NCBI RefSeq assembly: GCF_029937755.1
Contig: NZ_JAPYPG010000009.1
Span: forward strand, 1-64,000
Length of the DNA stretch: 64,000 bases
Direction: 5' to 3'
DNA from: Henriciella sp.
GTDB taxonomy: Bacteria; Pseudomonadota; Alphaproteobacteria; Caulobacterales; Hyphomonadaceae
A program made the translations under genes and the position numbers. The notes under the pieces were generated by a model. That model worked only from the letters and a program-made list of their open reading frames with translations, did no database searches and was not told the DNA's origin. Below, piece by piece: positions 14,473-63,235 of the stretch (positions within the stretch are counted from its first letter, which is position 1; every line of letters begins with the position of its first letter).

Positions 14473-16517
14473 GTCGACACCCGGGATCGAGACAGTTTGA
14501 GGAGTTGGGCGTTGATGGCGCAGATCACGGTGCTCGCCGACATGAACACCGCCCCAAGCGCGGGTGTGAGGATTACGCCCCAGGGGAAAAACACGCCCGC
14601 TGCCGCTGGAATGGCGAACGTGTTGTAGCCGGTCGCCCAAGCGAGGTTTTGCATCATTTTATTATAGGTCGCGCGAGCGAGTTCAATGATCGCTACGACA
14701 TCTGACGGGCTGGACCGGACAAGAATAATGTCGGCGGTTTCGATCGCGACATCCGTGCCAGCACCGATTGCGATCCCGACATTCGCTTGAGCCAGCGCCG
14801 GCGCATCGTTCACACCGTCACCGGTCATCGCCACGATCAGACCGCGGGACTGAACCTCTCGGACTTTAGCGGCTTTTTCTTCCGGCAATACTTCGGCAAT
14901 CACTTCGTCGAGGCCGATTTCCTGGCCGACCCATTCCGCCACCTGTTGATTGTCGCCAGTGAGCATGATGCACTGAATGCCCATGGCCTGAAGCATGAGG
15001 ATGGCTTTAGCGGATTCCTCACGAATGATATCGGCCAGCGCGATTGCGCCAGCGAGCTTGTCATCAATGAGCACGAAGACGACTGTCTTGCCCTGCGCGC
15101 TCAGGGTTTCGAACCGGGGATCATCCATTTCAAGACCCTGGTCGCGCAAATAGCCGGGGCTGACGACTTTCACGTCGCGGTCCTTAACGAGGCCTTCTGC
15201 ACCTTTGCCAGGGATCGCCTTAAACTTGTCGACACCCCATGCCTGCGGCGCATCGCGAACGATCCCCTGGGCGATTGGGTGTTCAGAATGAGCTTCAATA
15301 GACGCCGCGTAGGCGACGATATCGCTCTCAGTGAATGTCGTATCAAAAACAAGCGTATCGGTGATCCCAAACTCGCCCTTGGTCAGCGTGCCGGTTTTGT
15401 CGAAAATGATGGCATTGATGTTGCGCGCTTCTTCGAATGCCGTCCGATCCCGAATGAGCAATCCATTGGTGGCCGCGATCGCGGTCGAGCGCGCAACCAC
15501 AAGCGGCACAGCCAAACCAAGCGCGTGCGGGCAGGCGATGACCATCACGGTAACGGCGCGCGCCATAGCAAACCCAAATCCCTGATCGGTGAACAGGGTC
15601 CAGAACAAGACGGTCGATAGGCCTCCGCCAAGTGCGATAAAAGTCAGCCACTTGGCCGCCGTGTTGGCGAGATCCTGGGTTTTGGATTTGCTGGCTTGGG
15701 CTTCCTTAACCAGCTTGATGACGCTCGACAGGAAAGTCTCATCACCGGTCTTGTCGACCCGGATTGTTAGCGAACCTTCGCCATTGATTGATCCGCCGAT
15801 CACTTCGGTCTCCACGGTCTTGAAAATCGGCTTGGACTCGCCGGTGAGCATGGATTCATTGAGAGACGACTCGCCCCTGACAATGATCCCGTCAGCTGGG
15901 ACTTTCTCGCCTGGCTTGATCAGAAGATGTTCGCCGCCTTTCAGCGTCGAAACGGACACATCGATTACGCTGCCGTCATCCGCCACCAGGTGGGCTTCAT
16001 CCGGCATCAGGCTTGCAAGTTTTTCCAAGGCGCGCCCAGCGCCAAGCACCGATTTCATCTCGATCCAGTGCCCGAGCAACATCACCGCAATCAGGGTTGC
16101 GAGCTCCCAAAAAAAGGTCTCATCACTGCCGATTGCGACCATGCCGATGGAATAGGCGTAAGCAGCCGTAATCGCGACCGAAATCAGCGTCATCATACCG
16201 ATGTCGCGGGCGGTGATCTCTTGCAAAAACCCTTTCAGGAACGGCCAACCGCCATAGAAGAAAACAAGACTTGAAAGCCCTGCCAGCACATAACGGTCAC
16301 CCGGAAACCGCAAGGCATCTTCGAGGCCAAGCCAGCCTTGGATCATCGGCGCCAAAGCGAGGATGGGGATCGTGGCCACCAGCACAACCCAAAACCGCCG
16401 GCGATAATCGGCAATCATGCCTTCATGGTCGTGGCCGCCATGCGGGTCCGTTTTTTTCTGTCCGTGACCGGCATGAGGCGCGTGGCGAGAGGGGGGGGCG
16501 TGGGTGGAGTGATCCAT
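14469..16517 (-). CDS. copB: Copper-translocating P-type ATPase, CPH type (CopB ATPase)
   Basis: 682 residues, P1B-ATPase. His-rich N-terminus without a ferredoxin-like metal domain (residues 1-32, many His). The membrane metal motif is CPH at 329-331, characteristic of the CopB/P1B-3 class linked to Cu(II) or Ag/Cu export, in place of CPC. Other motifs: TGES phosphatase loop (225-228), DKTGTLT phosphorylation site (Asp373), HP dipeptide in [11 protein letters not shown], and GDGVNDAP. It pumps copper from cytoplasm to periplasm using ATP. Preceded 24 bases upstream by a YHS-domain gene and coupled to the small protein downstream. Symbol refers to the ATPase, not to the outer-membrane CopB genes. 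Confidence 0.95.
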
Positions 16518-49160: not shown

Positions 49161-50492
49161 TCACGAATGTGAGTGCGCATGATCGGGCGCCTCCTTGCCG
49201 CGGATCCGGCCCAGGTAGAGGGCTTCGAAGGCAAAGATTGCCGCCATGGAGCCCAGTGCGATCACAACGATCATCGGGTCAGCACTGGCCTTGATGAAGA
49301 GGAATGCGCCAAGCGCGATTAAGTCGAACAGAATGGCGGCGATCAGGACCCAGGCGCGGGCACCGACATCCTCGCGCAAATACCGCACTACACCGTAATG
49401 GATGATGATATCCATGACCAGATAGTAGATCGCGCCGAGTGAGGCGATCCGGCCAAGATCGAAGAAGGCGGCCAGAAAGGCAGCGAGCACGACGGTGTAG
49501 ACGAGCGTATGCGTCTGGATGCCGCCGGGCATGCCAAAATGCTTGTGCGGGATCAGGTTCATATTCGTCAGCATGGCGAGCATACGTGAGACGGCGAACA
49601 CGCTGGCCAGAAGTCCGGACGCTGTGGCTATGATCGCGATGATCACGGTGAACGCCACGCCACGATCGCCAAAGGCCGGGCGCGAGGCTTCGGCCAATGA
49701 AAAGTCCTTGGCTGCAACAATCTCGTCCAGCGTCAGCGAAGAGCCGACGGCCAGTGCCACAGCCATATAAACGACGAGGCAGATGGCCAGCGACCAGATG
49801 ATCGCCCGGCCGACATTCTTGTTGGGGTTCTGGACCTCGTCGCCGCTATTCGTGATCGTCGTGAAGCCTTTAAAGGCCAGGATTGCAAGCGCGACACCGG
49901 CCAGGAAACCGGCGGGTCCGGTCTGCTCAGTGGTCGCAGAGGATGCCGCTTCGAAGGAGAGGCCTGACGCCCAGAGCGCTGCGCCAGCAAAGACCAGTAT
50001 CCCGCCGACTTTGAGCACGGCCGCGACTTTGGACACGCCGCCGATTATCTTGTTGCCGGATATGTTGATCACAAAAGCAAAGACGATTAACCCGACTGCA
50101 AGCACCGGCACCAGAACGCTGTCTTTAGCGACATCGAAGAGCTGCAATGTGTAGGCCCCAAAGGTACGCGCGACGAGGCTTTCATTGATAATCATGGACA
50201 TGGTCATCAGGAGCGCGCTGGCGGCGGCAATCGTGGTTGGCCCGTACGCCTTCTGCAAGATCATCGCGATGCCGCCTGCCGACGGGTATTTGTTCGACAT
50301 CTTGATATAGGTGTAGGCGCTGAACCCGCTGATGAAGGCTGCAATCAGAAACGCAAGCGGGAAGCCGGGACCGGAAAATTGCGCAACCTGGCCGGTGAGG
50401 GCAAAGATACCAGCGCCAATCATCACGCCTGTGCCCATCGCGACAGTGCCAGCGAGGCTTAGCGAACCTTTCTTATAGGTTTCGGACGTCAT
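49161..50492 (-). CDS. APC-superfamily amino acid permease
   Basis: 443 residues, twelve spans. APC signature GSLSLAGTVAMGTGVMIGAGIFALTGQVAQ (9-38), the ISGFSAYTYIKMSNKYPSAGG block and the AILAFKGFTTITNSGDEVQNPNKNVGRAI loop. Ends in a His-rich tail (DHAHSHS), uncommon for the family and reminiscent of metal-binding tails. ATGA overlap with the DUF411 gene, so it belongs to the copper ATPase operon. The substrate may be an amino acid or a metal-amino acid complex; this is inference. Confidence 0.88.
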   Translation of the reverse strand: MTSETYKKGSLSLAGTVAMGTGVMIGAGIFALTGQVAQFSGPGFPLAFLIAAFISGFSAYTYIKMSNKYPSAGGIAMILQKAYGPTTIAAASALLMTMSMIINESLVARTFGAYTLQLFDVAKDSVLVPVLAVGLIVFAFVINISGNKIIGGVSKVAAVLKVGGILVFAGAALWASGLSFEAASSATTEQTGPAGFLAGVALAILAFKGFTTITNSGDEVQNPNKNVGRAIIWSLAICLVVYMAVALAVGSSLTLDEIVAAKDFSLAEASRPAFGDRGVAFTVIIAIIATASGLLASVFAVSRMLAMLTNMNLIPHKHFGMPGGIQTHTLVYTVVLAAFLAAFFDLGRIASLGAIYYLVMDIIIHYGVVRYLREDVGARAWVLIAAILFDLIALGAFLFIKASADPMIVVIALGSMAAIFAFEALYLGRIRGKEAPDHAHSHS

Positions 50493-50986
50493 TGGTCCGC
50501 TGCCTGCTCGGCTGGGAAACGGCCAACATAGCTGGCAAATACGCTTTGCGCCTCACCATCGAACAGGATCACATCATAGGCGTCAGGCGAATTTGGTGTT
50601 TCCATCCCCGGCGAGCCCATCGGCATGCCAGGCACAGATAGTCCCGCTCCGGCGGGACGTTCTTTCAGCAGCCTTCGGATGTCCGCGGCCGGGACATGGC
50701 CTTCAATCGCATACCCATCAATCTCGGCGGTGTGGCAGGATGCAAGTTGGTCGGGCACGCCAAGCGAGGCCCGCACGGGAGCCAGGTCCTCGCGTTCGAT
50801 GACGCGGACGTCCAGGCCGTCGCGCTGAAGATGTTTGACCCAGGCTGTGCAACACCCGCACCAGGGCGTCTTGTAGACGGTAATGGTCTGCGCATTCGCC
50901 GGGCCGGCGGTTCCGCTCATAACGGCAAATCCAGCCACGATGGCGAAGACTGCCGCCCCCAGGGATCCAAGAATCCATTTCGACAT
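50489..50986 (-). CDS. DUF411 periplasmic metal-binding protein
   Basis: 165 residues. Signal/anchor 1-32 (ending ANA), then a thioredoxin-like DUF411 domain: TITVYKTPWCGCCTAWVKHL with CGCC at 43-46, SLGVPDQLASCHTAEIDGYAIEGHVPAADIRRLL. The cysteines and the conserved CHT/GHVP histidines bind copper in related proteins. A Met/Pro segment (VPGMPMGSPGME) follows. Sits 17 bases after the copper ATPase gene and overlaps the APC gene. Confidence 0.92.
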   Translation of the reverse strand: MSKWILGSLGAAVFAIVAGFAVMSGTAGPANAQTITVYKTPWCGCCTAWVKHLQRDGLDVRVIEREDLAPVRASLGVPDQLASCHTAEIDGYAIEGHVPAADIRRLLKERPAGAGLSVPGMPMGSPGMETPNSPDAYDVILFDGEAQSVFASYVGRFPAEQAADQ

Positions 50987-51003: not shown

Positions 51004-53262
51004 TTACAGTTTTACGGATCGCAATCGAAGCGCATTGGCGATGACCGAGAATGAGCTGAGGCTCATCGCGGCGGCGGCGATAATTGGACTGAGAAGCAGT
51101 CCAAAGAACGGATAGAGGACGCCGGCAGCAACCGGCACGCCGAGCGAATTATAGATAAAGGCAAAGAACAGGTTTTCGCGAATATTGCCCATCGTCGCGC
51201 GGCTCAGCCGCTGCGCGCGGGCGACACCGCGAAGATCGCCTTTGACCAGGGTGACACTGGCGCTCTCCATGGCCACATCTGTACCGGTTCCCATGGCTAT
51301 TCCGATATCCGCTTGAGCAAGGGCAGGCGCGTCATTGATGCCGTCGCCGCACATGGCGACGACCGCACCTTTCGATTGGAGTTCGCGCACGATCCGGTTT
51401 TTGTCTTCTGGTGACACATCGGCCTCTACCTCATCAATGCCGATTTGGCGTGCAACCGCTTGTGCTGTTGCCAGGCTGTCGCCTGTCAGCATGACGACTT
51501 TCATGCCAGCCTTGTGCAAGGCGGCTATGGCTTCAGGGGTCGTTTCTTTGATTGGATCGGCGACACCAATCAGGCCCGCCGGTTTGCCGTCCAGAGCGGC
51601 GAACATCACCGTCTGGCCGTCGCGGCGATAGGTTTCAGCATGGGCTTTCAGTGTTTCGTCAAAAGCACCGACCCGGCGCATCATCTTGGCGTTGCCGATG
51701 GCGAAAAGCTTTCCATCGACCCGGCCCTGCGCGCCTTCTCCGGTGACTGATTCAAAATCGGTCGACTTCAGGCGCGCTGCGCCGCGCTCTTCGGCCCCGT
51801 TGACGATGGCTTGCGCAAGAGGGTGCTCGCTCCCGCGTTCAATCGCGGCAGCGTAAGCCAGGAAGTCTGCTTCTGCGAGACCACTCGCAGGCTCGACTGT
51901 CACAAGTTTGGGGTGGCCCTCTGTCAAAGTGCCGGTCTTATCGACGACGATCGTGTCGACTTTTTCAAACGTCTCGAGCGCTTCAGCATTTTTGATCAGA
52001 ATGCCGCTCTGTGCGCCCTTTCCTGTGGCGACCATAATTGACATCGGCGTTGCAAGGCCAAGCGCGCAGGGACACGCAATAATTAACACAGCCACGGCGT
52101 TGACGATCGCAAAAGCCATGGCCGGGTGAGGCCCAAAAATCGCCCAGACGATGAAAGTGATAATCGCGATCACGACGACGGCCGGGACAAACAGGCCGGC
52201 CACTGTGTCGGCGAGCTTCTGGATGGGCGCGCGTGAGCGCTGAGCTTCGGCGACCATGCGTACGATTTGCGATAGCATTGTATCTTCGCCGACGCGCGTC
52301 GCGGCCATGACGAGTGATCCGGTGCCGTTAACTGTACCGCCGGTAATCGGATCCCCTGCTGCTTTCTCGACTGGAATAGGTTCTCCAGTGATCATGGACT
52401 CGTCGACATTCGAACGCCCTTCAACAACTTCGCCGTCGACAGGTACTTTTTCGCCTGGCCGGACCCGTAGCCGGTCACCGCTCTGGACATCGTCGACGGA
52501 AACCTCTTCTTCCTGTCCGTCCGCCACGATTCGGTTTGCTGTCGGCGGGGTGAGTTCCAGGAGCGCGCGGATTGCTCCCGATGTTGCGCTTCGGGCTCGC
52601 AGCTCAAGAACCTGCCCGAGCAATACGAGCGTCGTGATCACCGCGGCCGCTTCATAATATACAGCGACTTCGCCAGCCTCATTGCGAAATGCGTGCGGAA
52701 AGATGCCTGGCAAAGCTGTTGCAACAAGCGAGAAGACAAAAGCAACGCCTACGCCGAGAGAGATAAGGGTGAACATGTTGAGGTTCATCGTCCGTACCGA
52801 CCGAACACCACGGACGAAGAATGGCCATCCGCCCCAGAGGACGACAGGAGCCGCCAGCACGAATTGAGCCCATTGGGACCAACCGGCGGGCAAAAGCCCT
52901 TCGAGGGGTTTGCCGGAGATCAGGTCACCCATGGCGTAAATGGCAAGCGGGATGGTGAAGATGGCGCTGATCCAGAATCTACGGGTCATATCGTCGAGTT
53001 CTGAAGTGTCTTCTTCGCCTACGACAACACCTTCTGGCTCCAGCGCCATGCCGCAGATAGGGCACCCGGAGTTTCGGACGTCGCGAACGTTTGGATGCAT
53101 CGGGCATGTATAGACCGTGCCTGTGTAGCCCTGCGGGACGAGATCATATTTGCCGTCCGCGCCGGCATCGGCGTCTCCGCCACCATGGCAACAATCATGA
53201 TCATCCCCGTGGTGGTGATCATGATGTCCATGGTCGTGATGTTTATGATCGGTATTGGTCAT
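51004..53262 (-). CDS. copA: Cu+-exporting P-type ATPase CopA, CPC type
   Basis: 752 residues from the ATG behind GGAGGGGCGG (the frame runs 11 codons further). His-rich N-terminus (7-26), then a Cys-rich heavy-metal-binding (YHS-like) domain, YTCPMHPN at 51-58 and GCPICGM at 66-72, in place of the usual HMA domain. P1B-1 motif CPC at 397-399, phosphorylation site DKTGT (Asp441), TGEP loop, SEHPLAQA and GDGINDAP. Exports Cu(I) to the periplasm. Flanked by DUF5676 upstream and DUF411 downstream, the common bacterial copper order. Confidence 0.95.
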
Positions 53263-53348
53263 ATCCGCCCCTCCGGGGTTTGGCTTCAGTGTCACTCTTA
53301 AAGGTCAGCGCCCGGGTTGGGCGGCTGATCTCTAATGGAGTTCTGGCA

Positions 53349-53600
53349 TTAGGCTTTTTGGCGATTGAACAGCCGGTAGAGCGGTACGAAGACAAGCGCG
53401 ATATACCAGCCGTAAACGTAGGACTCGATGAGGCCGAGGAAGAAGCTTGAAACCGAAATGAATTCAAATCCGGGTAGGAGCTCTTCCCACGCACCGTGCA
53501 TGTGGAGACTAGGCGGTGCGACCAACCCCCATGCGATACAGAGCGTAAACGTGATGGCGAGAAAAATGGATAGGGCGTGCCCAGTGGGGATGAGGCGCAT
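53349..53600 (-). CDS. DUF5676 small membrane protein
   Basis: 83 residues from MRLIPTGHALS behind AAGGAAAACACC; 11 upstream codons are open. Two membrane spans (~9-30 and ~50-75); family signature IPTGHALSIFLAITFTLCIAWGL, HMHGAWEELLPGFEF and GLIESYVYGWYIALVFVPLYRLF. DUF5676 proteins accompany copper/silver ATPases. First gene of the operon; a CsoR-like operator is 75 bases upstream. Confidence 0.88.
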   Translation of the reverse strand: MRLIPTGHALSIFLAITFTLCIAWGLVAPPSLHMHGAWEELLPGFEFISVSSFFLGLIESYVYGWYIALVFVPLYRLFNRQKA

Positions 53601-53674
53601 GGTGTTTTCCTTCTCTTTGGTTGTTGCCGCCACATAATTCGTGCGACAGCGATGCGTTGCTTCGAAAATGAGTT

Positions 53675-53693
53675 AATACCCATAGGGGGTATT
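53675..53693. promoter_or_regulatory. CsoR-like operator (DUF5676-copA ATPase operon)
   Basis: AATACCC-ATAGG-GGGTATT, a perfect 7-5-7 inverted repeat, the best of the family in the window. It lies between the AraC-regulator stop and the DUF5676 start and must cover the promoter of the DUF5676 / copper ATPase / DUF411 / APC operon. It is almost identical in layout to the operator of Bacillus copZA bound by CsoR. Confidence 0.75.
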
Positions 53694-53776
53694 GGTTACT
53701 CCGTATATATACTTAGGGCCCGCATCGTTGTCTTGAGCAAGACAAGCGCGCCGACCAATCCGCGTTGGGTGAGGGA

Positions 53777-54502
53777 TCAGCTGAGATCATCGACGGACAC
53801 CTCCAAACCCGACAGGCCAATTTTTGGGGTCACCCCGAACCATTGTTGCAGTCGGCGAGTGAAATGCGCCTGGTCAGCAAAACCGCCCGCGGCCGCTGCA
53901 TCAGCGAGACTGGACGACGCCTCCATTGCCTTAGCGGCGCCGAGCAATTGCAACCATTGCAATAGGTTGCTGGGCGGAACACCGAAGTCCGCCTTGACGA
54001 TCTCTCGCAGCCGAGTTGGAGACAGCGCGAGCTCGCGCGCCAGAGCGGCGGGATTGGCGAGTGCGCGAACGTTGCCAAGGGCTTTTTGTAGGCGTGAATC
54101 TATGGCCGAACCAGGCAACCGGCCCGCGAACCTTTTCGCCCAATCGCGCGCCTGACTAATGTCGCTGATGTGCTCTAGAGCGGCTGATAGATCATCCGAA
54201 AGGCAGGCAGGCTGATTGCATTGCTGATCGTTTCGAATTCCGGAAAAGCGCGGGTCAATATAGATCGAGCGCGTCAGGCGTCCCTCAGGACCGATGGAAT
54301 GGGTCTGCCCAGTAGGGATGTGAATAGCCTTGCCGGTCGGGGCTACTATCTCTGAGTTTGTCGTCACCACGACTGCGCCATCCAGCCCGAGTATGGCCTG
54401 ATGTGCCAAATGAGCATGTGCCGTGTTCTTGCCAAGGCGAGCGTCGAGCGCGGCCCAGCCGACCCCGATGGCCAACGCGCCAGACCAGGGCGCCGCGCTC
54501 AT
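53777..54502 (-). CDS. AraC-family transcriptional regulator
   Basis: 241 residues. N-terminal AraC-type sensor with cupin-like text (ARLGKNTAHAHLAHQAILGLDGAVVVT, 23-50), C-terminal double helix-turn-helix about 140-235 (ALARELALSPTRLREIVKADFGVPPSNLLQWLQLLGAAKAM, ADAAAAGGFADQAHFTRRLQQWFGVTP). The histidines of the sensor could bind a metal or metabolite. Its start overlaps the hypothetical gene by 4 bases. Its operon (acyltransferase, hypothetical, AraC) reads toward the copper ATPase operon. Confidence 0.9.
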   Translation of the reverse strand: MSAAPWSGALAIGVGWAALDARLGKNTAHAHLAHQAILGLDGAVVVTTNSEIVAPTGKAIHIPTGQTHSIGPEGRLTRSIYIDPRFSGIRNDQQCNQPACLSDDLSAALEHISDISQARDWAKRFAGRLPGSAIDSRLQKALGNVRALANPAALARELALSPTRLREIVKADFGVPPSNLLQWLQLLGAAKAMEASSSLADAAAAGGFADQAHFTRRLQQWFGVTPKIGLSGLEVSVDDLS

Positions 54503-54861
54503 TTCAATCTCCCCTGAGTGTCAGGCTCGGTTGCTTTAAGAAAAGCGTAGATCGCTGTTTCGCATTGACCGCACGCGGTCCCGAGCCTGTTCGGGCTGTT
54601 GCTCGTCGTTTCCAGCGAGGCTCTTTCAAGGCCTCTGAAAATACCTGCCATCGCTCGTAGTGCCCTGAGGAGATTTTCTCGGCGGTGTTCGATCGACTTC
54701 GCAAATGCCTCAGAAAGAAGAATGCACACCTCGGCCGTCATGAATGCCATTTCTGCAAACTTAGTTGCGGGTGTGTTTTCAGATGCGCTGCTTATAAGCT
54801 TCTCAAATTGGCTTTGAGCCCGAAGCAATGTTTCAATCAGTGAATGCGACGCGGAGGTCAT
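54499..54861 (-). CDS. Hypothetical helical protein
   Basis: 120 residues from the ATG that overlaps the acyltransferase stop and follows GGAGGTGGCCGC. Predicted all-helical and soluble: SHSLIETLLRAQSQFEKLISSASE, AFMTAEVCILLSEAFAKSIEHRRENLLRALRAMAGIFRGLERA. Three Cys, two as CGQC near 92-95. No family recognised. Bracketed by 4-base overlaps on both sides, so its translation is tied to the AraC regulator. Confidence 0.65.
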   Translation of the reverse strand: MTSASHSLIETLLRAQSQFEKLISSASENTPATKFAEMAFMTAEVCILLSEAFAKSIEHRRENLLRALRAMAGIFRGLERASLETTSNSPNRLGTACGQCETAIYAFLKATEPDTQGRLK

Positions 54862-55931
54862 GCGGCCACCTCCGGCGATACGGTTTTTTGGTTTATCGAG
54901 CGGGCGCGCAGCTTCAGAGCAAGCACTGGCTTTTCGATGACATGCCACGAAGTGGCCGCGACGAGCAGAATGAGCGGCGCGGTCATTATAGCCAGGACAG
55001 CGGGGCTAACATCTGGTTGTCCAACCAGAAATACCTGCAAAAGCGGGTAGTGCCAGATATAAATCCCGTACGAATAGTCCGGAATTTTGGCGATGCGGAC
55101 GGACGCACGTTTTGGCAATCCAGCTCGAAGCATTAGGCTTGTGAGGGCAAGGGTCGCAAACAATTCGCCGAGGGGGCCGCCGCCAAGGAGCGCGAACGCT
55201 GCAATCAGACCTGCGACCGCCAAGAGGGGCGGTCTGCGCAAAATAGGCCACTGCCAAAGCGTCATTCCGAGCAGAAAGGCCGATGAGAGGCGGAGCAAGG
55301 ACATCACGCTCGGCGGGAGCGCACTCGTATCGATGAACAAAGGCGCGCTAAGATAGACCGATTGCACAAGCAAGAAGACGCTAAGAACACGCCATGGGCC
55401 GTTGACGGTGCCAAACATGAACGCGATGCCCGCTAGGATGTACGCTGCTAGCTCGAACCGAATGGTCCAGAGCGGCCCGTTAAAGTCGGTTTCCAAATTC
55501 TGAGAGAATATCTGTGCGGGCGCGCTGTCGGGATCGCCAAGCGCCAAGACTTTGTAGGTGTATTGCCAGGTCTCCGGCTGAAACAATGATCCGCCGCCCT
55601 CGGCCGAATAGACAGGCGCGAAGACGAGGACAAAAGCCGCAAGTATAATCACCAGAGCTGGGTAGATCCGCAGAAACCGTGAAACTGCATAAGCCTTCAT
55701 ATCGCGCCTTGTATGAAGACTCTTGGCAATCAAGAGGCCTGACAGGACGAAGAACCCGTTCACGGCCATATAGCTGGCAGTCCATTCGTGGATGCGAAAC
55801 GGTTCGAACCCTGTCGTGAGGAGCCAGATATGACCGAGTACTACAGCGATCGCCAACACCCACCGCACCGCGGTGAAGTGGTTTTGACCCATCAGCGGGT
55901 CCGCAAGCTGTGTTTGGCCACCCCCAGCCAT
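54858..55931 (-). CDS. Acyltransferase 3 family membrane protein
   Basis: 357 residues, ten spans, OafA/NodX-type acyltransferase: QNHFTAVRWVLAIAVVLGHIWLL (His in span 1), FFVLSGLLIAKSLHTRRDMKAYAVSRFLRIYPALVII (R-x-x-R-I-x-P) and DYSYGIYIWHYPLLQVF. It O-acylates a surface sugar. Start lies 3 bases after the DUF2231 fusion gene, so it could belong to the copper operon transcript as well as to the AraC operon. Confidence 0.9.
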   Translation of the reverse strand: MAGGGQTQLADPLMGQNHFTAVRWVLAIAVVLGHIWLLTTGFEPFRIHEWTASYMAVNGFFVLSGLLIAKSLHTRRDMKAYAVSRFLRIYPALVIILAAFVLVFAPVYSAEGGGSLFQPETWQYTYKVLALGDPDSAPAQIFSQNLETDFNGPLWTIRFELAAYILAGIAFMFGTVNGPWRVLSVFLLVQSVYLSAPLFIDTSALPPSVMSLLRLSSAFLLGMTLWQWPILRRPPLLAVAGLIAAFALLGGGPLGELFATLALTSLMLRAGLPKRASVRIAKIPDYSYGIYIWHYPLLQVFLVGQPDVSPAVLAIMTAPLILLVAATSWHVIEKPVLALKLRARSINQKTVSPEVAA

Positions 55932-55934
55932 TTA

Positions 55935-56990
55935 TCAGTGCTCGTGATCTTCGGTGATCGGCGCGGATGACCAATGGACATGGTGAATCTTCCAGACCCC
56001 AGCGTCGCGTTTGAGAACCATGGTTTCCATAGCTTGGCGGTGCACGGGCTCGCCTCTATAGGCGCCATTAATCTCCGATTGAGAGATCACCGTAGCGATA
56101 TCGCTATTCTCGAGAATGTTTCGGTCTTTGAGATCGAATGAAACCGCGGCTGTATAAGCCATGTCTGCGGGCATATGATGGCCGGCATACTCTTCGAATG
56201 AGCGCTCGGCGCCGCCGCCCTCAGCGATCACGACGTCGGGGGAAAACAGCGCGCGCAGCGCCGCCTCATCACCTGCTTTTAACGCTTCGCCGAAAGCGTC
56301 AGCGACGCTCGCCGGCGATCCAGCTTGTGGCGCGGGTGTTGTGGACGGGCTGTCTCCATCATGGTGCCCATCACTATTGTCATGACTGATTGGAGCGACG
56401 TCGTGATGGCCATCGGAGTTTTCATGGGCAGCCGCGGTCGGCGCTAAATCTGGCATGGGATCCATATCATGATCTGCCGTGACGCCGCCGCCGCCATGAT
56501 CATGGTCGTGGCCATCTCCTGTCACCTGCGGCAGGCTTTTGACCCCAAGGCCGTAGCCATAGACGATTTTGCCGCCCCACCAGGCCGTGACGGTTAAGGC
56601 GAGCGCGGCCGCAGCCAAGCCTGTGACGAAAATGCCTGAGGCGGCTTTTGCTCTTCCCGTCCATCGCCAGGCCGCCAATAGGAGGATGGCGAGGCCGGAT
56701 GGTACAGCCCAGTTGCGGTGGGTGGTCATCGCTGCATGCGACGGCGCGTCATGATCTACCGTGTAATAGGCTTGAAATCCTGCCGCGATTGTCAGCACGA
56801 TTGCGATCGCACTAAAGGCCAGCATCCAGTCCGCGGCCGGGCGCAGAGTCTCTCGCCATCGCTCGACAGGCGAAAAGGCGGCCAACACATAAGAGGCCAA
56901 AGCCGTGAGGCTAAGCGCATAGGCAAAATGCACCAGAATCGGATGCAGGTTCGGTTCAATCAAATCGCCCAAAAGCGCCTCCCAGTTAGC
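55935..56990 (-). CDS. DUF2231 membrane domain fused through a His-rich linker to an NTF2-like domain (copy 2)
   Basis: 351 residues from MANWEALLGDL; an upstream ATG at 57050 is possible. Domain 1, DUF2231 (about 1-155), four spans with EPNLHPILVHFAYALS, AADWMLAF and AAGFQAYYTVDHDAPSHAAMTTHRNW. Linker (~165-235) is packed with His/Asp: GDGHDHDHGGGG, NSDGHHD twice. Domain 2 (~240-345) is a DUF4440/SnoaL (NTF2) fold: VADAFGEALKAGDEAALRALFSPDVVIAEGG, ETMVLKRDAGVWKIHHVHWSSA. Very similar to 57822-58916 in the first half. Function unknown; copper carriage or reduction by context. Confidence 0.85.
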   Translation of the reverse strand, partial: ANWEALLGDLIEPNLHPILVHFAYALSLTALASYVLAAFSPVERWRETLRPAADWMLAFSAIAIVLTIAAGFQAYYTVDHDAPSHAAMTTHRNWAVPSGLAILLLAAWRWTGRAKAASGIFVTGLAAAALALTVTAWWGGKIVYGYGLGVKSLPQVTGDGHDHDHGGGGVTADHDMDPMPDLAPTAAAHENSDGHHDVAPISHDNSDGHHDGDSPSTTPAPQAGSPASVADAFGEALKAGDEAALRALFSPDVVIAEGGGAERSFEEYAGHHMPADMAYTAAVSFDLKDRNILENSDIATVISQSEINGAYRGEPVHRQAMETMVLKRDAGVWKIHHVHWSSAPITEDHEH

Positions 56991-57090
56991 CATATGCGTG
57001 AGCGTCGCTATCTTCAGCGACTGGCATTGTCTGGGTGATACGCCGGACACTTGCCTGACCCCTCAAGAATTGTGGGGTCTGCAAGCGACG

Positions 57091-57306
57091 TTAGCTCAGG
57101 TCTTTCATGCGACGATCAAATTCTTCCTTGTCTATTTCGCCGCGCGCATATCGTCGCCGGAGGATATCGACCGGGTCGTTGGACTTGGAGTCCGCCCCGT
57201 CCCGATTGATGGTCGCACGCACAGCGACATAGATCAGCAATGCCAGGACGCCCCAAAAAATCAGCGCGCCAAGATTGCCGAAAATCATATGCCCCATATC
57301 GGCCAA
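57091..57306 (-). CDS. SHOCT-domain small membrane protein
   Basis: 71 residues from TTG, chosen because GGAGATCTAAA sits 7 bases upstream; the next start is an ATG three codons on. One membrane span (~10-30, GALIFWGVLALLIYVAVRA), then a SHOCT motif at 44-71 (DPVDILRRRYARGEIDKEEFDRRMKDL). Short C-terminal SHOCT proteins are common beside copper genes. Lies between the truncated copB and the DUF2231 fusion. Confidence 0.85.
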   Translation of the reverse strand: MADMGHMIFGNLGALIFWGVLALLIYVAVRATINRDGADSKSNDPVDILRRRYARGEIDKEEFDRRMKDLS

Positions 57307-57324
57307 TTTAGATCTCCATCATGT

Positions 57325-57729
57325 TTAGAACCAGGTTCGCACACCGACGAGCAATGCCGTTTGATCTTTTTCGCCTCCAGACGCCTCAATGAAGTCTGCG
57401 GTATCGCCAATAGCGCTTTGCCATTCGACGCCAATATATGGCGCGAATTCGCGAACAATTTCGTAGCGAAGGCGCAGGCCGGCATCAACGCTGGTTAAAC
57501 CAGAACTGAGTTGCAGGTCAGGCATATCCTGAGCAGAAAGGCTCGCTTCTAAGCGGGGTTGAAGGATCAGACGCTGGGTTAGCAGCAACTCATATTCGGC
57601 CTCGACCCGTGCCGTGACGTCGCCTTCGGTGCTCACAAAAGCAGCAGCGTCAGCTTCAAACCAATGTCCAGCCCGCACTTTATGGGCCAGTTTGAAGTAG
57701 GGTTTCTGGGGGAAGGACAGGACAGTCAT
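57325..57729 (-). pseudogene. Truncated copB (C-terminal part only)
   Basis: 134 residues. From about residue 22 (HWFEADAAAF) it aligns with the C-terminal half of the full CopB at 58926-59729: EGDVTARVEAEYELLLTQRLILQPRLEAS, LRLRYEIVREFAPYIGVEWQSAIGDTAD and LLVGVRTWF. Signal peptide and N-terminal half are lost; the first ~20 residues are unrelated. A CsoR-like operator sits 7 bases from its start codon. A rearranged relic unlikely to reach the outer membrane. Confidence 0.8.
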
Positions 57730-57735
57730 GACCTA

Positions 57736-57752
57736 ATACCCATATGGGGTAT
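57736..57752. promoter_or_regulatory. CsoR-like operator next to the truncated copB
   Basis: ATACCC-ATATG-GGGTAT, a perfect 6-5-6 inverted repeat. It lies between the end of the first DUF2231 fusion gene and the truncated copB, only 7 bases from the latter's start. Probably the original operator of a copper operon brought here by the rearrangement that cut copB, now driving the SHOCT / DUF2231 copy 2 genes. Confidence 0.65.
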
Positions 57753-57821
57753 ACTCAATATCATCGCCGCTTGCCGATTGCATTTCAACTTGGCCAGCAC
57801 GCGGCAGTTTGGATTTCCTCC

Positions 57822-58916
57822 TTATCGCGGCGCACGAGAGGACGAGTGCGTGTGAATGACCTGCCAGGTGCCGGCGACCTTGCGGAACAGCACCGTTTGT
57901 TTCCCGATACGCTCCAGGCGTTCGCCATTGGAGCTGAACGTTCCACTGATCGCTGTGTCCGCGACAGCCCATGCAAAGTCACTTCCCTCGAATTGCACGT
58001 CTATATTCGAGAAGTCGAGTTCGAGATCCGGAATGGTATCTTTTTCGGGCTCGACATGATTTTCGACAAGGTCGAGCAGGCCAGTATTCTCGCCGCCTGA
58101 CTCAAAGTACCGGGCGCCTGACCAGTCGAGAAAGTTCTGTCGGAACAGTTCGCCATCGCCGGTCTCCCAACCGGTTTCGATCGCGGCCATGATATCCAGG
58201 ATCGCCTGTTCATCAGTCGAGACCGGTTTGGTGTCGTGATGGCCGTCGGAGTTGTCGTGTCCGGCGGGGACCGTGCCTGACATTTCTCGATCAGCTGCAC
58301 CGTCGGTATGGTCGTGATCATGTCCATCGCCGCTCGCCGATGATCCATCCATCGTGTCGGATGGAGGCGCTCCGTGAGCGTCTTGATGATCGTCTGTTGA
58401 ATTTACGGTGCCTTGGTCGCCATGACCGGCTCCGCCGCCATGATCATGATCGTGGCCTGGCCCGCTGGCTTCAGGAAGGGTCTGCACGCCAAGTCCGTAC
58501 TTGTAGACAATTGTGCCTCCCCACCACGCTGTAACCGGCAAAAGACCTGCCACCGCCAGGGCACTGATCGCAAATACCGGGCCGGGCGACGAGGCCCTTC
58601 TCAGCCAGCGCCAACCGGCGAGGGCCAGTAATGCGAGGCCCGTGGGAACAGCCCAGTTGCGATGGGTTGTCATCGCTTCATGGGACGGCGCATCGTGAGC
58701 AACGCTGTAATAGGCCTGAAACCCGGCCGCGATGGTGGCCAGAACCGCCAAGGCAGCCAATGCCAGCATCCAGTCGGCGGCCGGTCGAAGGCTGTCGCGC
58801 CAGCGGCCTGCAGGTACGAGGAGGCCAGCCACATATGCCAAGGCTGCAGATGTGCCGAGGGCATAGGTAAAATGCACCAGCACGGGGTGAATATTGGGTT
58901 CTATGAAACCGCCCAT
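57822..58916 (-). CDS. DUF2231 membrane domain fused through a His-rich linker to an NTF2-like domain (copy 1)
   Basis: 364 residues. DUF2231 part 1-150 with four spans (EPNIHPVLVHFTYALG, AADWMLALAAL, AAGFQAYYSVAHDAPSHEAMTTHRNW, TAWWGGTIVYKYGLGVQTLP). Linker ~158-235 rich in His/Asp (GHDHDHGGGAGHGD, GDGHDHDHTDG, NSDGHHD). NTF2-like part ~240-360: AILDIMAAIETGWETGDGELFRQNFLDW, ETVLFRKVAGTWQVIHTHSS. The C-terminal half differs from copy 2 while the first half is highly similar. It follows copB by 9 bases in the copA-copB operon. Confidence 0.87.
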   Translation of the reverse strand: MGGFIEPNIHPVLVHFTYALGTSAALAYVAGLLVPAGRWRDSLRPAADWMLALAALAVLATIAAGFQAYYSVAHDAPSHEAMTTHRNWAVPTGLALLALAGWRWLRRASSPGPVFAISALAVAGLLPVTAWWGGTIVYKYGLGVQTLPEASGPGHDHDHGGGAGHGDQGTVNSTDDHQDAHGAPPSDTMDGSSASGDGHDHDHTDGAADREMSGTVPAGHDNSDGHHDTKPVSTDEQAILDIMAAIETGWETGDGELFRQNFLDWSGARYFESGGENTGLLDLVENHVEPEKDTIPDLELDFSNIDVQFEGSDFAWAVADTAISGTFSSNGERLERIGKQTVLFRKVAGTWQVIHTHSSSRAPR

Positions 58917-58925
58917 TTTGTTCTC

Positions 58926-59729
58926 CTAATACCAGGTCCGCAGGCCCACGAGAAAGACGATATCGTCGCCTTCACCGCCTGCGGCTTTGATCATGTCGCG
59001 TGTCTCACCGAAGGCGCTTTGCCATTCGACGCCGACATAAGGCGCAAACTCCCTCCTGATTTCATAACGAAGCCGCAAGCCGGCATCGAGTGTGCTAAGT
59101 CCCGCGCCCGTTTCCCTTTCCGGTATGTCCTGCGCGGAAAGATTTGCTTCGATCCGAGGCTGCAAGATCAACCGCTGGGTCAGGAGCAACTCATATTCAG
59201 CCTCGATGCGGGCCGTTACATCGCCTTTTTCACTGAGAAAGGCGGAAGCGTCGACTTCGAACCAGTAGGGCGCCAGACCATTCAGTGCGACGACCCCATG
59301 CGCGAGACTATCCGGTTCGATGTCGTAGCGAACGCCCGCCTGAACATTCCAGAAAGGCGCAACCGCGCGGGAATAGAGCGCCTGGATCTCGGCATCATCC
59401 ACGCCCTCTCCATTCAGAGAGGCGCGGCCCTCGCTCTTGAACCAGAGCTTGTTGATATCGCCCCCATACCAAGCCTGTCCGTTCCAGTACAAACTGTCGC
59501 CCTCGTCAGACATCTGAGCCTCGAGCTGGTTGAAGAGGATGTAGAAGCTCTTCTGGTCTCCGCCTTCCGCAAGAACGTCCCGGCGAGCGTCCGCCATTGC
59601 ATCCTCGCCGTAGATGGCGTCGGCCTGATCCCAGGGCGGGGTTTGATTTGTGTCTTCCGCGAACGCGCTGCCGGTCGCGTAGAGCGCGAAGCCGAGGAGG
59701 AGAGGGGCTGCCAAATTCGGTTTCATCAT
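58926..59729 (-). CDS. copB: Copper resistance outer-membrane protein CopB (full length)
   Basis: 267 residues. Signal peptide 1-24 (ending AFA). An acidic/Met stretch follows (about 30-75, including NQLEAQMSDEGDSLYWNGQ), then the barrel blocks WYGGDINKLWFKSEGRA, IQALYSRAVAPFWNVQAGVRYD, LAPYWFEVDASAF, YELLLTQRLILQP, LRLRYEIRREFAPYVGVEWQ and a terminal TWY. Start overlaps the copA stop by 4 bases. Serves as the donor-like full copy for the truncated copB 1.2 kb downstream. Confidence 0.95.
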   Translation of the reverse strand: MMKPNLAAPLLLGFALYATGSAFAEDTNQTPPWDQADAIYGEDAMADARRDVLAEGGDQKSFYILFNQLEAQMSDEGDSLYWNGQAWYGGDINKLWFKSEGRASLNGEGVDDAEIQALYSRAVAPFWNVQAGVRYDIEPDSLAHGVVALNGLAPYWFEVDASAFLSEKGDVTARIEAEYELLLTQRLILQPRIEANLSAQDIPERETGAGLSTLDAGLRLRYEIRREFAPYVGVEWQSAFGETRDMIKAAGGEGDDIVFLVGLRTWY

Positions 59730-61567
59730 GATTTTCCCTCCCCATGGTTCATGCCGTGATGGTCCATGGGCATATTCATCTGACCTGCCGGCATTTTTTC
59801 AGCTGGTGTCGTATCGTCTGCTGGCGGAATGACGCTGACGACCTGCATCATGCCAGCGTGCATGTGGTAAAGCAGATGGCAGTGGAACGCCCAGTCACCG
59901 ACATGTTCTGCGGTGATGTCGACGCTGACCCTGTCTGCAGGCTTGACCGTTACTGTGTGCTTTCGAGGCATGTGATGACCACCGCCATTCACGAGATCGA
60001 AAAACATGCCGTGCAAATGGATCGGGTGTGGCATCATTGTATCGTTTACGAGCGTCAGGCGAACACGTTCACCCTCGTAGAACTTGATTGACTCGGTTAC
60101 CTCGGAGAATTTTACACCGTCGAACGACCACATGTAGCGTTCCATGTTCGACGTCAGATGAATGACAATTTCGCGGCCAGGCGGGCGATGGTCCTCATTC
60201 ATGTCGAGCGCGCGAAGCTGGTTATAGGTGAGCGTGCGGTGGGGGACATCATCAAGCCCGAGACCGGGTTCGCCCAAGCGGCTCATCGTCATGCCTGATA
60301 CTTTTGCGACACCGGGGCCGCGCTCTATATCTGCTTCAATCTTGACGGGCTGGACCGCCGGACCATGAGGATCGGGCATCATCGACATGGCACCCATGTC
60401 GTGGCCTTTCATGTCGTCCCCGGCCGTCGCGGTGTCCGGACCATGATCCATTCTCCCCATGCCTGACATGCCCGCCATGTCTCCATGGGCCATTCCCATG
60501 TCCCGCATGGTCAGCATCGGCACAGCTCGAAGCGCAGGCGCATCGACCCGCATACCGGCACGCGGGCCGAGCGTGGCGACGGCCTGGCCGGAGCGGTCGA
60601 TCGATTCGGCAACAAAGGCGTAGGCGCGCGCTTCGGTCGGCGCGATGATGACATCATACGTCTCGGCCACGCCCATCTGGAACTCGTCGGTCTCAACCGG
60701 CTGGACATTCAGACCGTCGGCCTGGACCACCGTCATCGGCAAGCCCGGGAGGCGGACATTGAAGAGGGTCATGGCGGAGGCGTTGATAATGCGCAGGCGA
60801 ACCCGCTCGCCCGGCTGGAAGACCATATTGAAATTATCGGCCGTCGAATGGCCATTGATCAGGTAGGTGTAGGTTTCGCCGGTCACGTCTGCGAGATCGC
60901 GCGGGCTCATTCGCATCTGCCCCCACATGCCGCCAAGTCCGGTTGGGTTCGACAGGGTCGGGCGGTTGAAATTCAGGCTCTCGGCATTCTTCTTGAGCTT
61001 GTCGAAGATCCGGTGCGGATGCGTGAAACTCCAGTCGCTGAGGACGAGCACATATTCCCGGTCATAAGCCACTGGGTCTGTACCTGCCGGATCTATGACG
61101 ATCGGACCGTAATGGCCGAGTTGTTCCTGCAGACCAGAATGGGAGTGATACCAGTAAGTGCCATTTTGCGGCACCTTGAACTGATATTTGAACGTTTCGC
61201 CCGGTTTGATGCCCGGGAAGCTGACGCCCGGCACGCCGTCCATATGGAAGGGGACAAGCAGTCCGTGCCAATGGATCGAAGTGTCTTCGGCAAGCCGGTT
61301 GGTGACGTTCATTGTAACGTCATCGCCCTCGCGCAACCGCAAGAGCGGACCGGGAAGTGTGCCATTGATTCCGGTTGCCATACCGACTTTGCCGTTGAGC
61401 CTGACCGGGAACTGCCCGATTTCGAGGTCGAAGCGCGTGCCCGAAAGTGAGGGCACACCAAGGTTTCCGTTGCTGGAAGATTTTGCCCAAGCGGGCAGGA
61501 GGCTGCTTGCCCCCAAGGTTGCGCCGGTGCCGAGCACCGTCTGCAACATACGTCGTCTGTTCAACAT
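59726..61567 (-). CDS. copA: Multicopper oxidase CopA, Tat-exported
   Basis: 613 residues from MLNRRRMLQ, which follows GGAGACGATT; an ATG four codons up lacks a site. Twin-arginine signal (RRRMLQTVLG...LLPAWA), so the enzyme is folded with copper in the cytoplasm before export. Copper ligands: HWHGLL, YWYHSHSG, HPIHLHGMFF, and HCHLLYHMHAGMM. Met/His-rich insertion about 360-430 (MRDMGMAHGDMAGMSGMGRMDHG). Oxidises Cu(I) in the periplasm. First enzyme of the second copAB operon, coupled to copB. Confidence 0.96.
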   Translation of the reverse strand: MLNRRRMLQTVLGTGATLGASSLLPAWAKSSSNGNLGVPSLSGTRFDLEIGQFPVRLNGKVGMATGINGTLPGPLLRLREGDDVTMNVTNRLAEDTSIHWHGLLVPFHMDGVPGVSFPGIKPGETFKYQFKVPQNGTYWYHSHSGLQEQLGHYGPIVIDPAGTDPVAYDREYVLVLSDWSFTHPHRIFDKLKKNAESLNFNRPTLSNPTGLGGMWGQMRMSPRDLADVTGETYTYLINGHSTADNFNMVFQPGERVRLRIINASAMTLFNVRLPGLPMTVVQADGLNVQPVETDEFQMGVAETYDVIIAPTEARAYAFVAESIDRSGQAVATLGPRAGMRVDAPALRAVPMLTMRDMGMAHGDMAGMSGMGRMDHGPDTATAGDDMKGHDMGAMSMMPDPHGPAVQPVKIEADIERGPGVAKVSGMTMSRLGEPGLGLDDVPHRTLTYNQLRALDMNEDHRPPGREIVIHLTSNMERYMWSFDGVKFSEVTESIKFYEGERVRLTLVNDTMMPHPIHLHGMFFDLVNGGGHHMPRKHTVTVKPADRVSVDITAEHVGDWAFHCHLLYHMHAGMMQVVSVIPPADDTTPAEKMPAGQMNMPMDHHGMNHGEGKS

Positions 61568-61625
61568 AATCGTCTCCATGAGGTGAATTTATGCAATCGG
61601 GCTGCTAATGCAGCGACGCACGAAA

Positions 61626-62012
61626 TCAGCTCAGGGAACGCACCTTCAATGTGACTGGCGTTTGTTGCAGCAGGTAACTTCGGACCTCAGGCCAGGGCGT
61701 GCGGACATTGACGACGCGCTTCCATGCGTGTTGCCATGAGGGTGTAGCAAGCCCGATGGGCGTCGTATCGCCTAATACGTGCTGGACCGGGTTCGCCGTC
61801 TTGTCGGCTTGGGCGACCGTTGCTGTCTGAAGCTTGCAGTGATCAGTCTCATCATCGCAGGGCGCCTCAGGCCCATCGGCGGGCGCCTGGTGAGAATGAG
61901 CGGTGAACTCGGTTGCCATGCTATTCGTCGCCGACATATCGACGGGACACGCGCAGAGCACCTGCGACAGGCTGAAAAATACCGTCACGAGAGTTGCGAC
62001 AACAAAGTTCAT
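61626..62012 (-). CDS. Small exported Cys/His protein heading the second copAB operon
   Basis: 128 residues from MNFVVATLV (a start three codons up is possible). Signal peptide 1-19 ending VLCA, then CPVDMSATNSMATEF, HSHQAPADGPEAPCDDETDHC and a basic C-terminal part (WKRVVNVRTPWPEVRSYLL). Cys and His spacing suggests metal binding. I do not recognise the family. It lies 58 bases upstream of copA and just below a CsoR-like operator, so it is probably copper induced. Confidence 0.75.
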   Translation of the reverse strand: MNFVVATLVTVFFSLSQVLCACPVDMSATNSMATEFTAHSHQAPADGPEAPCDDETDHCKLQTATVAQADKTANPVQHVLGDTTPIGLATPSWQHAWKRVVNVRTPWPEVRSYLLQQTPVTLKVRSLS

Positions 62013-62023
62013 GACTACCACTT

Positions 62024-62040
62024 ATACCCCATAGGGGTTT
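62024..62040. promoter_or_regulatory. CsoR-like operator (second copAB operon)
   Basis: ATACCC-CATAG-GGGTTT, one mismatch to the 6-5-6 pattern; the core TACCCC-ATA-GGGGT is symmetric. Positioned 12 bases upstream of the small exported-protein gene that leads the copA-copB-DUF2231 operon. Confidence 0.6.
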
Positions 62041-62363
62041 AAATCAAGAAAGAACCTCTGAGCACTCAAGGTTTGTCGTAACGGAGCAGGATCAACCCAG
62101 ACCCGCGGGTCAGTCCCGAGCGAAAAGTTGCATGGCTACGCTCCAGCGCGAATTTGAACGGCCAGCAAATCATGTTAGCGATGTGAATGTCGTTGATAGG
62201 CAGCGTCGAACTTTGACAACACGAAAGGGCTGCACCACAGTTTGCACTACAAATTGCAAACAATCTGCACAACAAGCGAAGTTTTGAGTGCCATAGTGCG
62301 TTGAATTAATTTAATTTCAAGCACGATTACTGGGCGCGTCACTCGCGCCAGATCAGCCAGACG
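62041..62363. other. Intergenic region with an AT-rich segment and a long inverted repeat
   Basis: About 320 bases without a credible gene between the second copper operon and the enoyl-CoA hydratase terminator. It contains the GTTTGCA inverted repeat at 62240 and an AT-rich, nearly symmetric stretch at 62301-62320 (TTGAATTAATTTAATTTCAA). These could hold the promoter for the copper operon or an unseen small RNA; nothing more can be shown. Confidence 0.5.
62240..62261. promoter_or_regulatory. GTTTGCA-N8-TGCAAAC inverted repeat
   Basis: Perfect 7-bp arms with an 8-base spacer in the 320-base region upstream of the second copper operon. Size and symmetry suit a dimeric helix-turn-helix regulator. 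It is about 230 bases from the first gene downstream on the minus strand. Regulator unknown. Confidence 0.45.
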
Positions 62364-62394
62364 AAAAAAGCCGGAGCTCCAGGGCTCCGGCTTT
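62364..62394 (-). terminator. Rho-independent terminator of the enoyl-CoA hydratase gene
   Basis: On the minus strand an 11-bp perfect stem (AAAGCCGGAGC / GCTCCGGCTTT) with a 6-base loop is followed by a run of T residues, 26 bases after the enoyl-CoA hydratase stop. Confidence 0.9.
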
Positions 62395-62419
62395 CGTGTG
62401 TCTGGCACTATGGTTTCGG

Positions 62420-63235
62420 TCAGCAATCCTCAAAGACCGCCGGCCGTTTCTGCAGCTCAGCCATGACCGCCTCGATCTGATTCTTCGATCCGATGATCTT
62501 GTCCTGCAGGACTGATTCCTGCACCAGCGCATCCTCGTCACTCATCTGATGGAGAGTGTTGAAGATGTGCTTGTCCGCCTTGATGGCGTCGGGGTTCTTC
62601 GACGCGATCAGCCTGGCCATTTCCATGGCGCGCTCATAGGGGGTATCGCTCAGCTCAGTTGCGAAACCATACCCTAGGGCATCTGTGCCCGAGAAAATTC
62701 GGCCGGTATATGTCAGCTCCCGGAGAATATCGTCGCGACAGAGATTTCGCATGATTGCCGTTCCGGCCATGTCGGGCACCAGGCCCCACTTGATCTCCAT
62801 GATCGACATCTTTGTGTCGGGATGAACAATGCGAATATCCGGGCCAAGCGCCAACTGGAACCCGCCACCGAGAGACACACCGTGCACGGCGGCAATCACA
62901 GGTACGGGAAGGCTGCGCCATCCCCAGACAGCCTGCTGCGCCCTGTTGGCAATCCCGTGTGTGCGCTCAGCGAGAACGCGTTTGCCGCCGCTGGCCGGAT
63001 CTCCGGCGCTACCCTCGGCCATCTTGCCGAAATTGCCCATGTCGAGGCCTGCACAGAAGGCCCTGCCTTCACCGGAAAGGACAACACAACGAACGGAACT
63101 ATCTTCTGAGAGCGCATCACTTGTCTCGATGAGAGCGCTGAACATGGCCTCGTCCAGTGCATTCATCTTGTCTGATCGCATCAGTTTGACGTCGGCCACG
63201 CCCTCCGATTTCGTAACCTTGATCCGCTCCGACAT
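62420..63235 (-). CDS. Enoyl-CoA hydratase/isomerase (crotonase) family protein
   Basis: 271 residues from MSERIKVTK behind GAGGAGATCGAG. Crotonase fold: oxyanion loops GEGRAFCAGLDMGNF (about 58-72) and VIAAVHGVSLGGGFQLALGPDIRIVHPDTKMSIMEIKWGLVPDMAG (about 118-163); the glutamates of the classic hydratase pair are only partly evident, so it may be an isomerase or another crotonase. C-terminal LRELTYTGRIFSGTDALGYG and the helical tail are usual. Stand-alone gene with its own terminator. Confidence 0.9.
   Translation of the reverse strand: MSERIKVTKSEGVADVKLMRSDKMNALDEAMFSALIETSDALSEDSSVRCVVLSGEGRAFCAGLDMGNFGKMAEGSAGDPASGGKRVLAERTHGIANRAQQAVWGWRSLPVPVIAAVHGVSLGGGFQLALGPDIRIVHPDTKMSIMEIKWGLVPDMAGTAIMRNLCRDDILRELTYTGRIFSGTDALGYGFATELSDTPYERAMEMARLIASKNPDAIKADKHIFNTLHQMSDEDALVQESVLQDKIIGSKNQIEAVMAELQKRPAVFEDC

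Follow-up and report, generated by a model that had tools for sequence, protein, structure and literature searches.

What do two related membrane proteins do that are encoded close together among the copper-resistance genes of Henriciella sp.? They lie in a 64,000-nucleotide stretch of DNA (hereafter, the window; RefSeq assembly GCF_029937755.1, contig NZ_JAPYPG010000009.1, positions 1 to 64,000), and each, as read from its sequence, is a four-helix membrane anchor followed by a histidine-rich stretch and a domain predicted to be periplasmic. The architecture of these fusions, their linkage to copper operons, the exchange of their modules and the conservation of their histidines can be read directly from sequences. 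On this basis, we put forward a conditional account of their topology, of copper binding with a preference for Cu(II), and of docking to a partner, in which the fusions plausibly act as copper carriers.

Architecture and conserved features of the fusions

Fusion B (copy 1, P0001) is encoded on the minus strand at 57822-58916 (364 residues), and fusion A (copy 2, P0004) on the same strand at 55935-56993 (352 residues), with the ATG at 56993 as the best reading of its start. Both consist of a DUF2231 half, a linker rich in histidine and aspartate, and an NTF2 half, which belongs to class B in fusion B and to class A in fusion A (see below). In fusion B, these parts lie at 58470-58916 (about residues 1-149), 58227-58469 (about 81 residues, including 12 His and no Cys) and 57825-58226 (about residues 231-364, of the SnoaL_3 type); in fusion A, they lie at 56526-56993, 56319-56525 (69 residues, 10 His) and 55938-56318, all on the minus strand. 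Copies 1 and 2 match the DUF2231 profile PF09990 with E values of 3.3e-14 and 3.4e-13 (53.6 and 50.3 bits against a curated cut-off of 26.4) and the SnoaL_3 profile PF13474 with E values of 3.8e-6 and 3.9e-14 (27.7 and 53.5 bits against a curated cut-off of 22), and the DUF4440 profile scores above its cut-off in copy 2 only. A sequence-only reading of this DNA had described such a fusion in two copies, and the Pfam matches bear it out. Its estimate of 60-80 residues for the linker fits copy 2, and copy 1 comes to 81. It had also called the DUF2231 halves nearly alike and the NTF2 halves different; the latter are indeed only 30% identical, but "nearly alike" is too strong for DUF2231 halves that are 61% identical (query residues 5-175). 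A chance fusion is excluded, since dozens of genomes contain the arrangement in the same gene surroundings.

The AlphaFold model of fusion A contains four long helices in the DUF2231 half (mean predicted local distance difference test score, pLDDT, 88.6), a linker with pLDDT under 50 at residues 167-215, and a confident NTF2 domain (mean pLDDT 81.9). Because the predicted template modelling score is 0.49, the placement of the domains relative to each other says little. In the fold comparison, only NTF2 folds were matched among the best 50 rows, including 3bb9 with a TM-score of 0.92 by target and a root mean square deviation of 1.1 Å; the identity to 3bb9 is 44% over 116 columns. The DUF2231 model matched helical bundles at background level only.

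Charged residues predict the orientation in the membrane. The mean number of lysines plus arginines in 37 sequences is 0.03 at the N-terminus, 2.84 in loop 1, 1.00 in loop 2, 3.49 in loop 3 and 0.81 after the fourth transmembrane helix, and their concentration in loops 1 and 3 indicates, by the positive-inside rule, that both termini of the anchor face outwards. This points to a location of the linker and the NTF2 domain outside the cytoplasm, as the sequence-only reading had supposed, and many stand-alone NTF2 homologues begin, as judged by eye, with a signal-peptide-like stretch.

Conservation is concentrated on this predicted periplasmic side. In the numbering of fusion A, H22, H81, H86 and H92 do not vary among 37 fusions or among 39 DUF2231 halves, and H17 is conserved in at least 90%; by the predicted topology, all five are periplasmic. 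The loop-2 motif HDxPxHxxMxxHR occurs in 36 of the 37 fusions. In the NTF2 half, E258, G260, W334, H338 and H340 are invariant in the 37 fusions. The linkers consist of 14% histidine, carry DGHH in 24 fusions and have no cysteine in any of the 37; in the whole proteins, cysteine is missing from both window copies and occurs once each in four of the 37 aligned fusions. Since the linker lacks cysteine and is rich in histidine and aspartate, its composition suggests a preference for Cu(II) rather than Cu(I).

The same positions were compared with 24 other DUF2231 proteins, after 5 of 29 rows had been dropped for length. H17 is present in 23 of them, H22 in 8 and H81 in 3, and other residues dominate at H86; H92 falls in a gapped region.

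Copper linkage, the NTF2 partner and exchange of halves

With fusion A as query, the best 80 pattern stretches gave at least 68 loci, several of which are near-copies. The copB gene lies upstream on the same strand in 56 of the 68 loci and elsewhere in the locus in 2, and copA lies upstream in 51. The loci contain open reading frames (ORFs) for 43 class-A fusions, 24 class-B fusions and 1 NTF2 domain alone, with both classes present in 5 loci. Six further ORFs have a DUF2231 domain without the NTF2 half, of which four end at a contig end and two (L070 and L071) stand alone. Among 105 genomes of the window's family, fusion A was matched in 55, CopB in 72 and both in 53. These genomes hold 73 gene places, namely 39 fusions, 7 places with DUF2231 only and 27 with NTF2 only; this count leaves out three short linker matches (query 157-206) and CopD places below the cut-off. 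At least three of the seven DUF2231-only places are in fact B fusions (L141, L143 and L144), and two (G368 and G376) stand alone. The copB gene is found within 5 kb of 43 of the 46 DUF2231-bearing places and of 23 of the 27 NTF2-only places. Thus, membership of the fusions in copper operons, which recurs in many genomes, is well shown, and the tie to copA and copB proposed from the window alone is supported. Neither finding that would have spoken against that proposal, a lack of the fusions in all other copper operons or a predicted cytoplasmic linker and NTF2 domain with no tie to copper genes, was obtained.

The NTF2 half also occurs without DUF2231. Fusion A matched 39 plasmid records, 37 of them in its NTF2 part and 2 in its DUF2231 part, and no match among them covered its full length; gene order was read in 7 of the 39. 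As a separate gene, class-A NTF2 occurs in copper operons, where its neighbours are CopC-CopD or a cytochrome c. For example, the order is copA-copB-NTF2-DUF411-copC-copD in Caulobacter henricii, copC-copD-NTF2 on Alteromonas and Shewanella plasmids, copA-copB-copC-copD-NTF2 in the window's own family (L103-L106), and copL-copA-copB-cytochrome c-NTF2-DUF411-four-helix protein-copC-copD in Xanthomonas citri. The Xanthomonas cytochrome c ends in a His-rich tail and is followed by the separate NTF2 gene; in Rhodanobacter, copB is followed by a single gene whose product runs from a cytochrome c domain (PF13442) through a His-rich stretch to a SnoaL_3/DUF4440 domain. On Alteromonas and Salinimonas plasmids, genes of both classes are adjacent after copD, with B directly after A. 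The stand-alone protein carries only the annotation "nuclear transport factor 2 family protein". Conversely, a stand-alone DUF2231 protein with a His-rich tail follows copB in two genomes, G368 and G046 (L107 and L117). Next to a DUF2231 gene on a Simkania plasmid, no copA or copB was found in the 12 kb read, although a gene annotated as copper oxidase is present. Another protein (L115:3103-4791) joins DUF2231 and a His-rich stretch to a different C-terminal part, which matches neither the NTF2 profiles nor Pfam.

The DUF2231-bearing form and CopD tend to exclude each other. In the 105 genomes, a CopD match above the PF05425 cut-off lies within 5 kb of none of the 46 DUF2231-bearing places and of 23 of the 27 NTF2-only places (Fisher p 3e-15, with related genomes treated as independent). 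Five above-cut-off CopD places (G325, G329, G336, G351 and G352) were left out of the count; they have no contig in common with a DUF2231-bearing place, and the figure of 0 of 46 therefore stands. At E 0.001, CopD is not matched anywhere in the genome from which the window comes.

In phylogenetic trees, the NTF2 halves fall into classes A and B, an old split with a Shimodaira-Hasegawa-like approximate likelihood ratio test (SH-aLRT) support of 99, and the 17 B fusions form one group with a support of 96. Rapid divergence of one NTF2 half was considered as another source of the difference and is ruled out by this split and by the existence of class B as separate plasmid genes. The DUF2231 tree requires five changes for these B fusions, at least two of which are forced by starred branches, and a single B clade is rejected by the approximately unbiased test (p-AU 0.00027). 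In particular, the B fusions L047 and L049 group with the A fusions L018 and L031 with a support of 100, and L031 and L047 were found in a single strain. Since one tree unites the B fusions while the other rejects them as a clade, the halves recombine; modular exchange is thus well shown from the two trees, in agreement with the earlier suggestion that the parts may evolve separately. Note that single forks are unsure, as the trees were built by quick searches from 147 and 125 columns. The input was reduced from 94 to 68 DUF2231 halves and from 99 to 74 NTF2 halves, and 24 loci were dropped (near-copies, contig-end pieces, L028 with a masked stretch, and L108). The NTF2 tree was flagged for having few columns and long branches that meet; in it, four stand-alone rows that are distant and scored as A (L030_A, L136_A, L139_A and L147_A) branch beside class B.

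Proposed role and rival explanations

The best-fitting reading, to which we give about an even chance, is that the fusion is a membrane-anchored periplasmic component of the CopAB system that handles Cu(II) in the slot of CopCD or CopM. Each fusion would take the position that, in other operons, is occupied by NTF2 together with either CopC-CopD or the cytochrome CopM. Its four helices would anchor the protein to the inner membrane, leaving both termini on the periplasmic side, where H17, H22, H81, H86 and H92, together with the flexible, Cys-free linker, may bind the Cu(II) that the oxidase CopA produces. The NTF2 domain, which is probably dimeric, as is usual for this fold, would serve to dock the anchored copper to CopB or CopA as partner; alternatively, it may provide a second site that includes the invariant E258, H338 and H340. 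The direction of copper flow implied here is likewise presumptive. This Cu(II)-handling role is supported by the linkage to copB, the exclusion of CopD, the CopM-like layout in Rhodanobacter and Xanthomonas, the His-tailed DUF2231 proteins after copB, the predicted topology, the conserved histidines, the His-rich, Cys-free linkers and the reported need for CopM in full copper resistance.

Several observations weigh against it. The exclusion of CopD is not absolute, as homologues of CopC and CopD lie about 3 kb downstream of the fusion in L047, and in G315 and G320 a CopD gene lies 12.6 and 13.6 kb from a DUF2231-bearing place, beyond the 5-kb limit. Within the DNA examined, copB is absent from 10 of the 68 loci; L056 has nothing but a distant oxidase (38%); and no copper gene was matched in the locus DNA around a class-A fusion (L065, 5983-6954) in a genome bin of the Opitutales (Verrucomicrobiota). 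His-rich stretches bind Zn and Ni as well, and DUF2231 may be a mere anchor. It shows no PF05425 match up to E 1, and hhalign gave probabilities of 0.9% and 1.4% against CopD. Finally, filling the CopCD slot need not mean resistance, because CopCD is described (PMC12362106) as a pair for copper uptake that makes Pseudomonas syringae copper-sensitive.

The main rival would make DUF2231 a redox module: a membrane electron carrier whose conserved histidines ligate haem b and which shuttles electrons between the quinone pool on one side and CopA or copper in the periplasm on the other. In this form, it would functionally replace the c-type cytochrome CopM, and the linker would hold copper beside it. 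We consider this reading rather unlikely; for DUF2231 as a CtaA-like haem protein, there were weak hints only. An enzymatic role of the NTF2 half, as an isomerase, dehydratase or hydrolase that acts on a small periplasmic ligand and removes a compound which copper has made toxic, would leave DUF2231 and the linker as an anchor only. In its favour, enzymes are common among SnoaL-like relatives; 3bb9, the closest solved structure, bears the title of a putative ketosteroid isomerase; the five NTF2 residues listed above are invariant in the 37 fusions; and in 20 of the 68 loci the gene after the fusion encodes a membrane acyltransferase. However, that title is the depositors' prediction, and nothing beyond it and the NTF2/SnoaL fold was found in favour of a small-ligand enzyme. 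Among the neighbours looked for, those that recur are copper genes plus the acyltransferase-3 (AT3), SHOCT and DUF5676 genes (a recurring metabolic gene set was not searched for), and the His-rich linker would be left unexplained. We regard the enzyme as unlikely.

Lastly, the fusion could be a sensor or adaptor that signals periplasmic copper to the regulatory machinery, or a passenger without a role of its own that is carried along as copAB segments spread. In favour of this, the fusion is shared with copAB as a near-identical segment, and genes of the AraC and SHOCT types are close by. Nevertheless, the Pfam scan matched no cytoplasmic signalling domain, and the retention of the fusion after copAB in many Hyphomonadaceae and Parvularculaceae, with its histidines conserved, speaks against a passenger. 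We hold both variants to be very unlikely.

If the Cu(II)-handling role is taken further, the periplasmic NTF2 domain, in classes A and B, may be an unrecognised core part of Cop/Pco systems that plugs into CopCD, a CopM cytochrome or a copper-specific His-tailed DUF2231 protein. The DUF2231 form would then be a novel way to replace CopC, CopD and their NTF2 partner by a single protein, with recombination between its halves keeping it in circulation. We offer this wider proposal tentatively, at somewhat less than an even chance. CopC-CopD has been studied as a copper-handling pair, and a third periplasmic protein is found beside it, beside a cytochrome c, or fused to DUF2231. If NTF2 is indeed their shared partner, DUF2231 and SnoaL_3/DUF4440 proteins acquire a testable role in copper resistance, plasmid systems included.

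Origin of the pair and comparison with known systems

On the minus strand, the operon in the window reads small ORF, copA, copB, fusion B, truncated copB, SHOCT gene, fusion A and AT3 gene. Beyond these come another small ORF and genes for an AraC-type regulator, a DUF5676 protein, a P1B ATPase of the copper type and a DUF411 protein. The first small ORF (61626-62021) has no Pfam or NCBIfam match and accompanies the segment in related loci. The copA multicopper oxidase (59726-61579) matches TIGR01480 with 747 bits, and copB (58926-59729; PF05275, E 2.5e-89) lies directly upstream of fusion B, which starts 9 bp after it; copy 1 thus follows copB, as first read. Copy 2 had been placed after a truncated copB and its operator. 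Both are present, but the gene for a small SHOCT-domain protein (57091-57297) intervenes. The truncated copB (57325-57729) corresponds to residues 152-267 of the intact 267-residue CopB, with 69% identity. The operator-like palindrome ATACCCATATGGGGTAT (57736-57752), which we presume to resemble a CsoR-type site, adjoins the junction described below. Directly after fusion A comes the AT3 membrane protein (54858-55931), followed further on by the ATPase (51004-53295; TIGR01511 above cut-off), matched in 48 of the 68 loci, and the DUF411 gene (50489-50986; PF04214 above cut-off), whose product we take to be what is called CopG; all of these genes are on the minus strand. Three loci (L009, L010 and L011) have two AT3 copies each. 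Away from this operon, the window contains another copB (149-844) and a multicopper oxidase gene (869-2590) at its start, with no fusion A match near them, and an additional P-type ATPase gene (E1-E2 ATPase and Hydrolase domains) at 14469-16517; contig C34 of this genome carries yet another copB.

The two copies had been taken for simple tandem paralogues, a view that does not survive comparison with related genomes. A segment of about 4.6 kb carrying copA, copB and fusion B (57719-62350) is 99.6% identical to DNA of another genus, Hyphomonas pacifica (L058), and at 57719-62347 it is 99.2% identical to Aquisalinus luteolus of the Parvularculaceae (L062); these two have a longer stretch of about 10 kb in common. 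The remainder, at 52001-57665, is 95.8% identical to Hyphomonas atlantica (L007), which has its own copA and copB ahead of fusion A, 68% and 61% identical to those of the window. Since the two parts match different genomes, copy 1 and the copA and copB in front of it most simply came in together; the resident gene would then survive as the truncated copB. Tandem duplication as the source of the pair is ruled out by the separate matches. The segment meets the resident operon between 57665 and 57719, and the palindrome is located at this junction. A search of 57400-62800 turned up no inverted repeats of at least 16 bases; the direct repeats in this part are the two copB stretches.

No function had been known for this architecture to the sequence-only reading, and none was found in the literature searched, from which subscription journals were mostly missing; no item joined copper resistance, nuclear transport factor 2, copA and copB. 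By title, DUF4440/SnoaL with copper resistance brought up only Klebsiella plasmid and Aspergillus genomes, and DUF2231 only a database of cysteines in DUF proteins. As DUF2231 proteins, both copies match their family above the cut-off, and their loop-2 motif is missing, as judged by eye, from most of the 24 other Pseudomonadota proteins compared. Two distant ones (L189 and L191) have a similar loop motif, HDSPxHxLVHxHRD, and a His-rich tail. A relationship of DUF2231 to CopD was considered and found no support in the Pfam scan or by hhalign, and the scan matched no CopC domain (presumably PF04234) in the window fusions up to E 1.

The class-A NTF2 half shares its fold with 3bb9 (Sfri_1973 of Shewanella frigidimarina), which differs in being a 148-residue protein without a membrane part; a ketosteroid isomerase is suggested by its title only. 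The CopM system resembles the window fusions in its slot after copB, its His-rich stretch and its class-A NTF2 partner, joined in one gene in Rhodanobacter. Judging from gene order and domain, the Xanthomonas cytochrome would be the CopM of the literature, which has a cytochrome c domain and is reported to be needed for full copper resistance (PMC10924375). The difference is that its other module is a c-type cytochrome (PF13442), whereas the window fusions have a four-helix DUF2231 bundle, with no cysteine in either protein and hence no CXXCH haem motif. CopC-CopD, a periplasmic chaperone and a membrane protein that are often fused (PMC8478169), likewise combines a membrane module with a periplasmic copper-binding part (PMC8478169, PMC12362106), and it adjoins class-A NTF2 in the window's family and on Alteromonas and Shewanella plasmids. 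In place of the CopC domain, the fusions have the His/Asp linker, which is predicted to be disordered.

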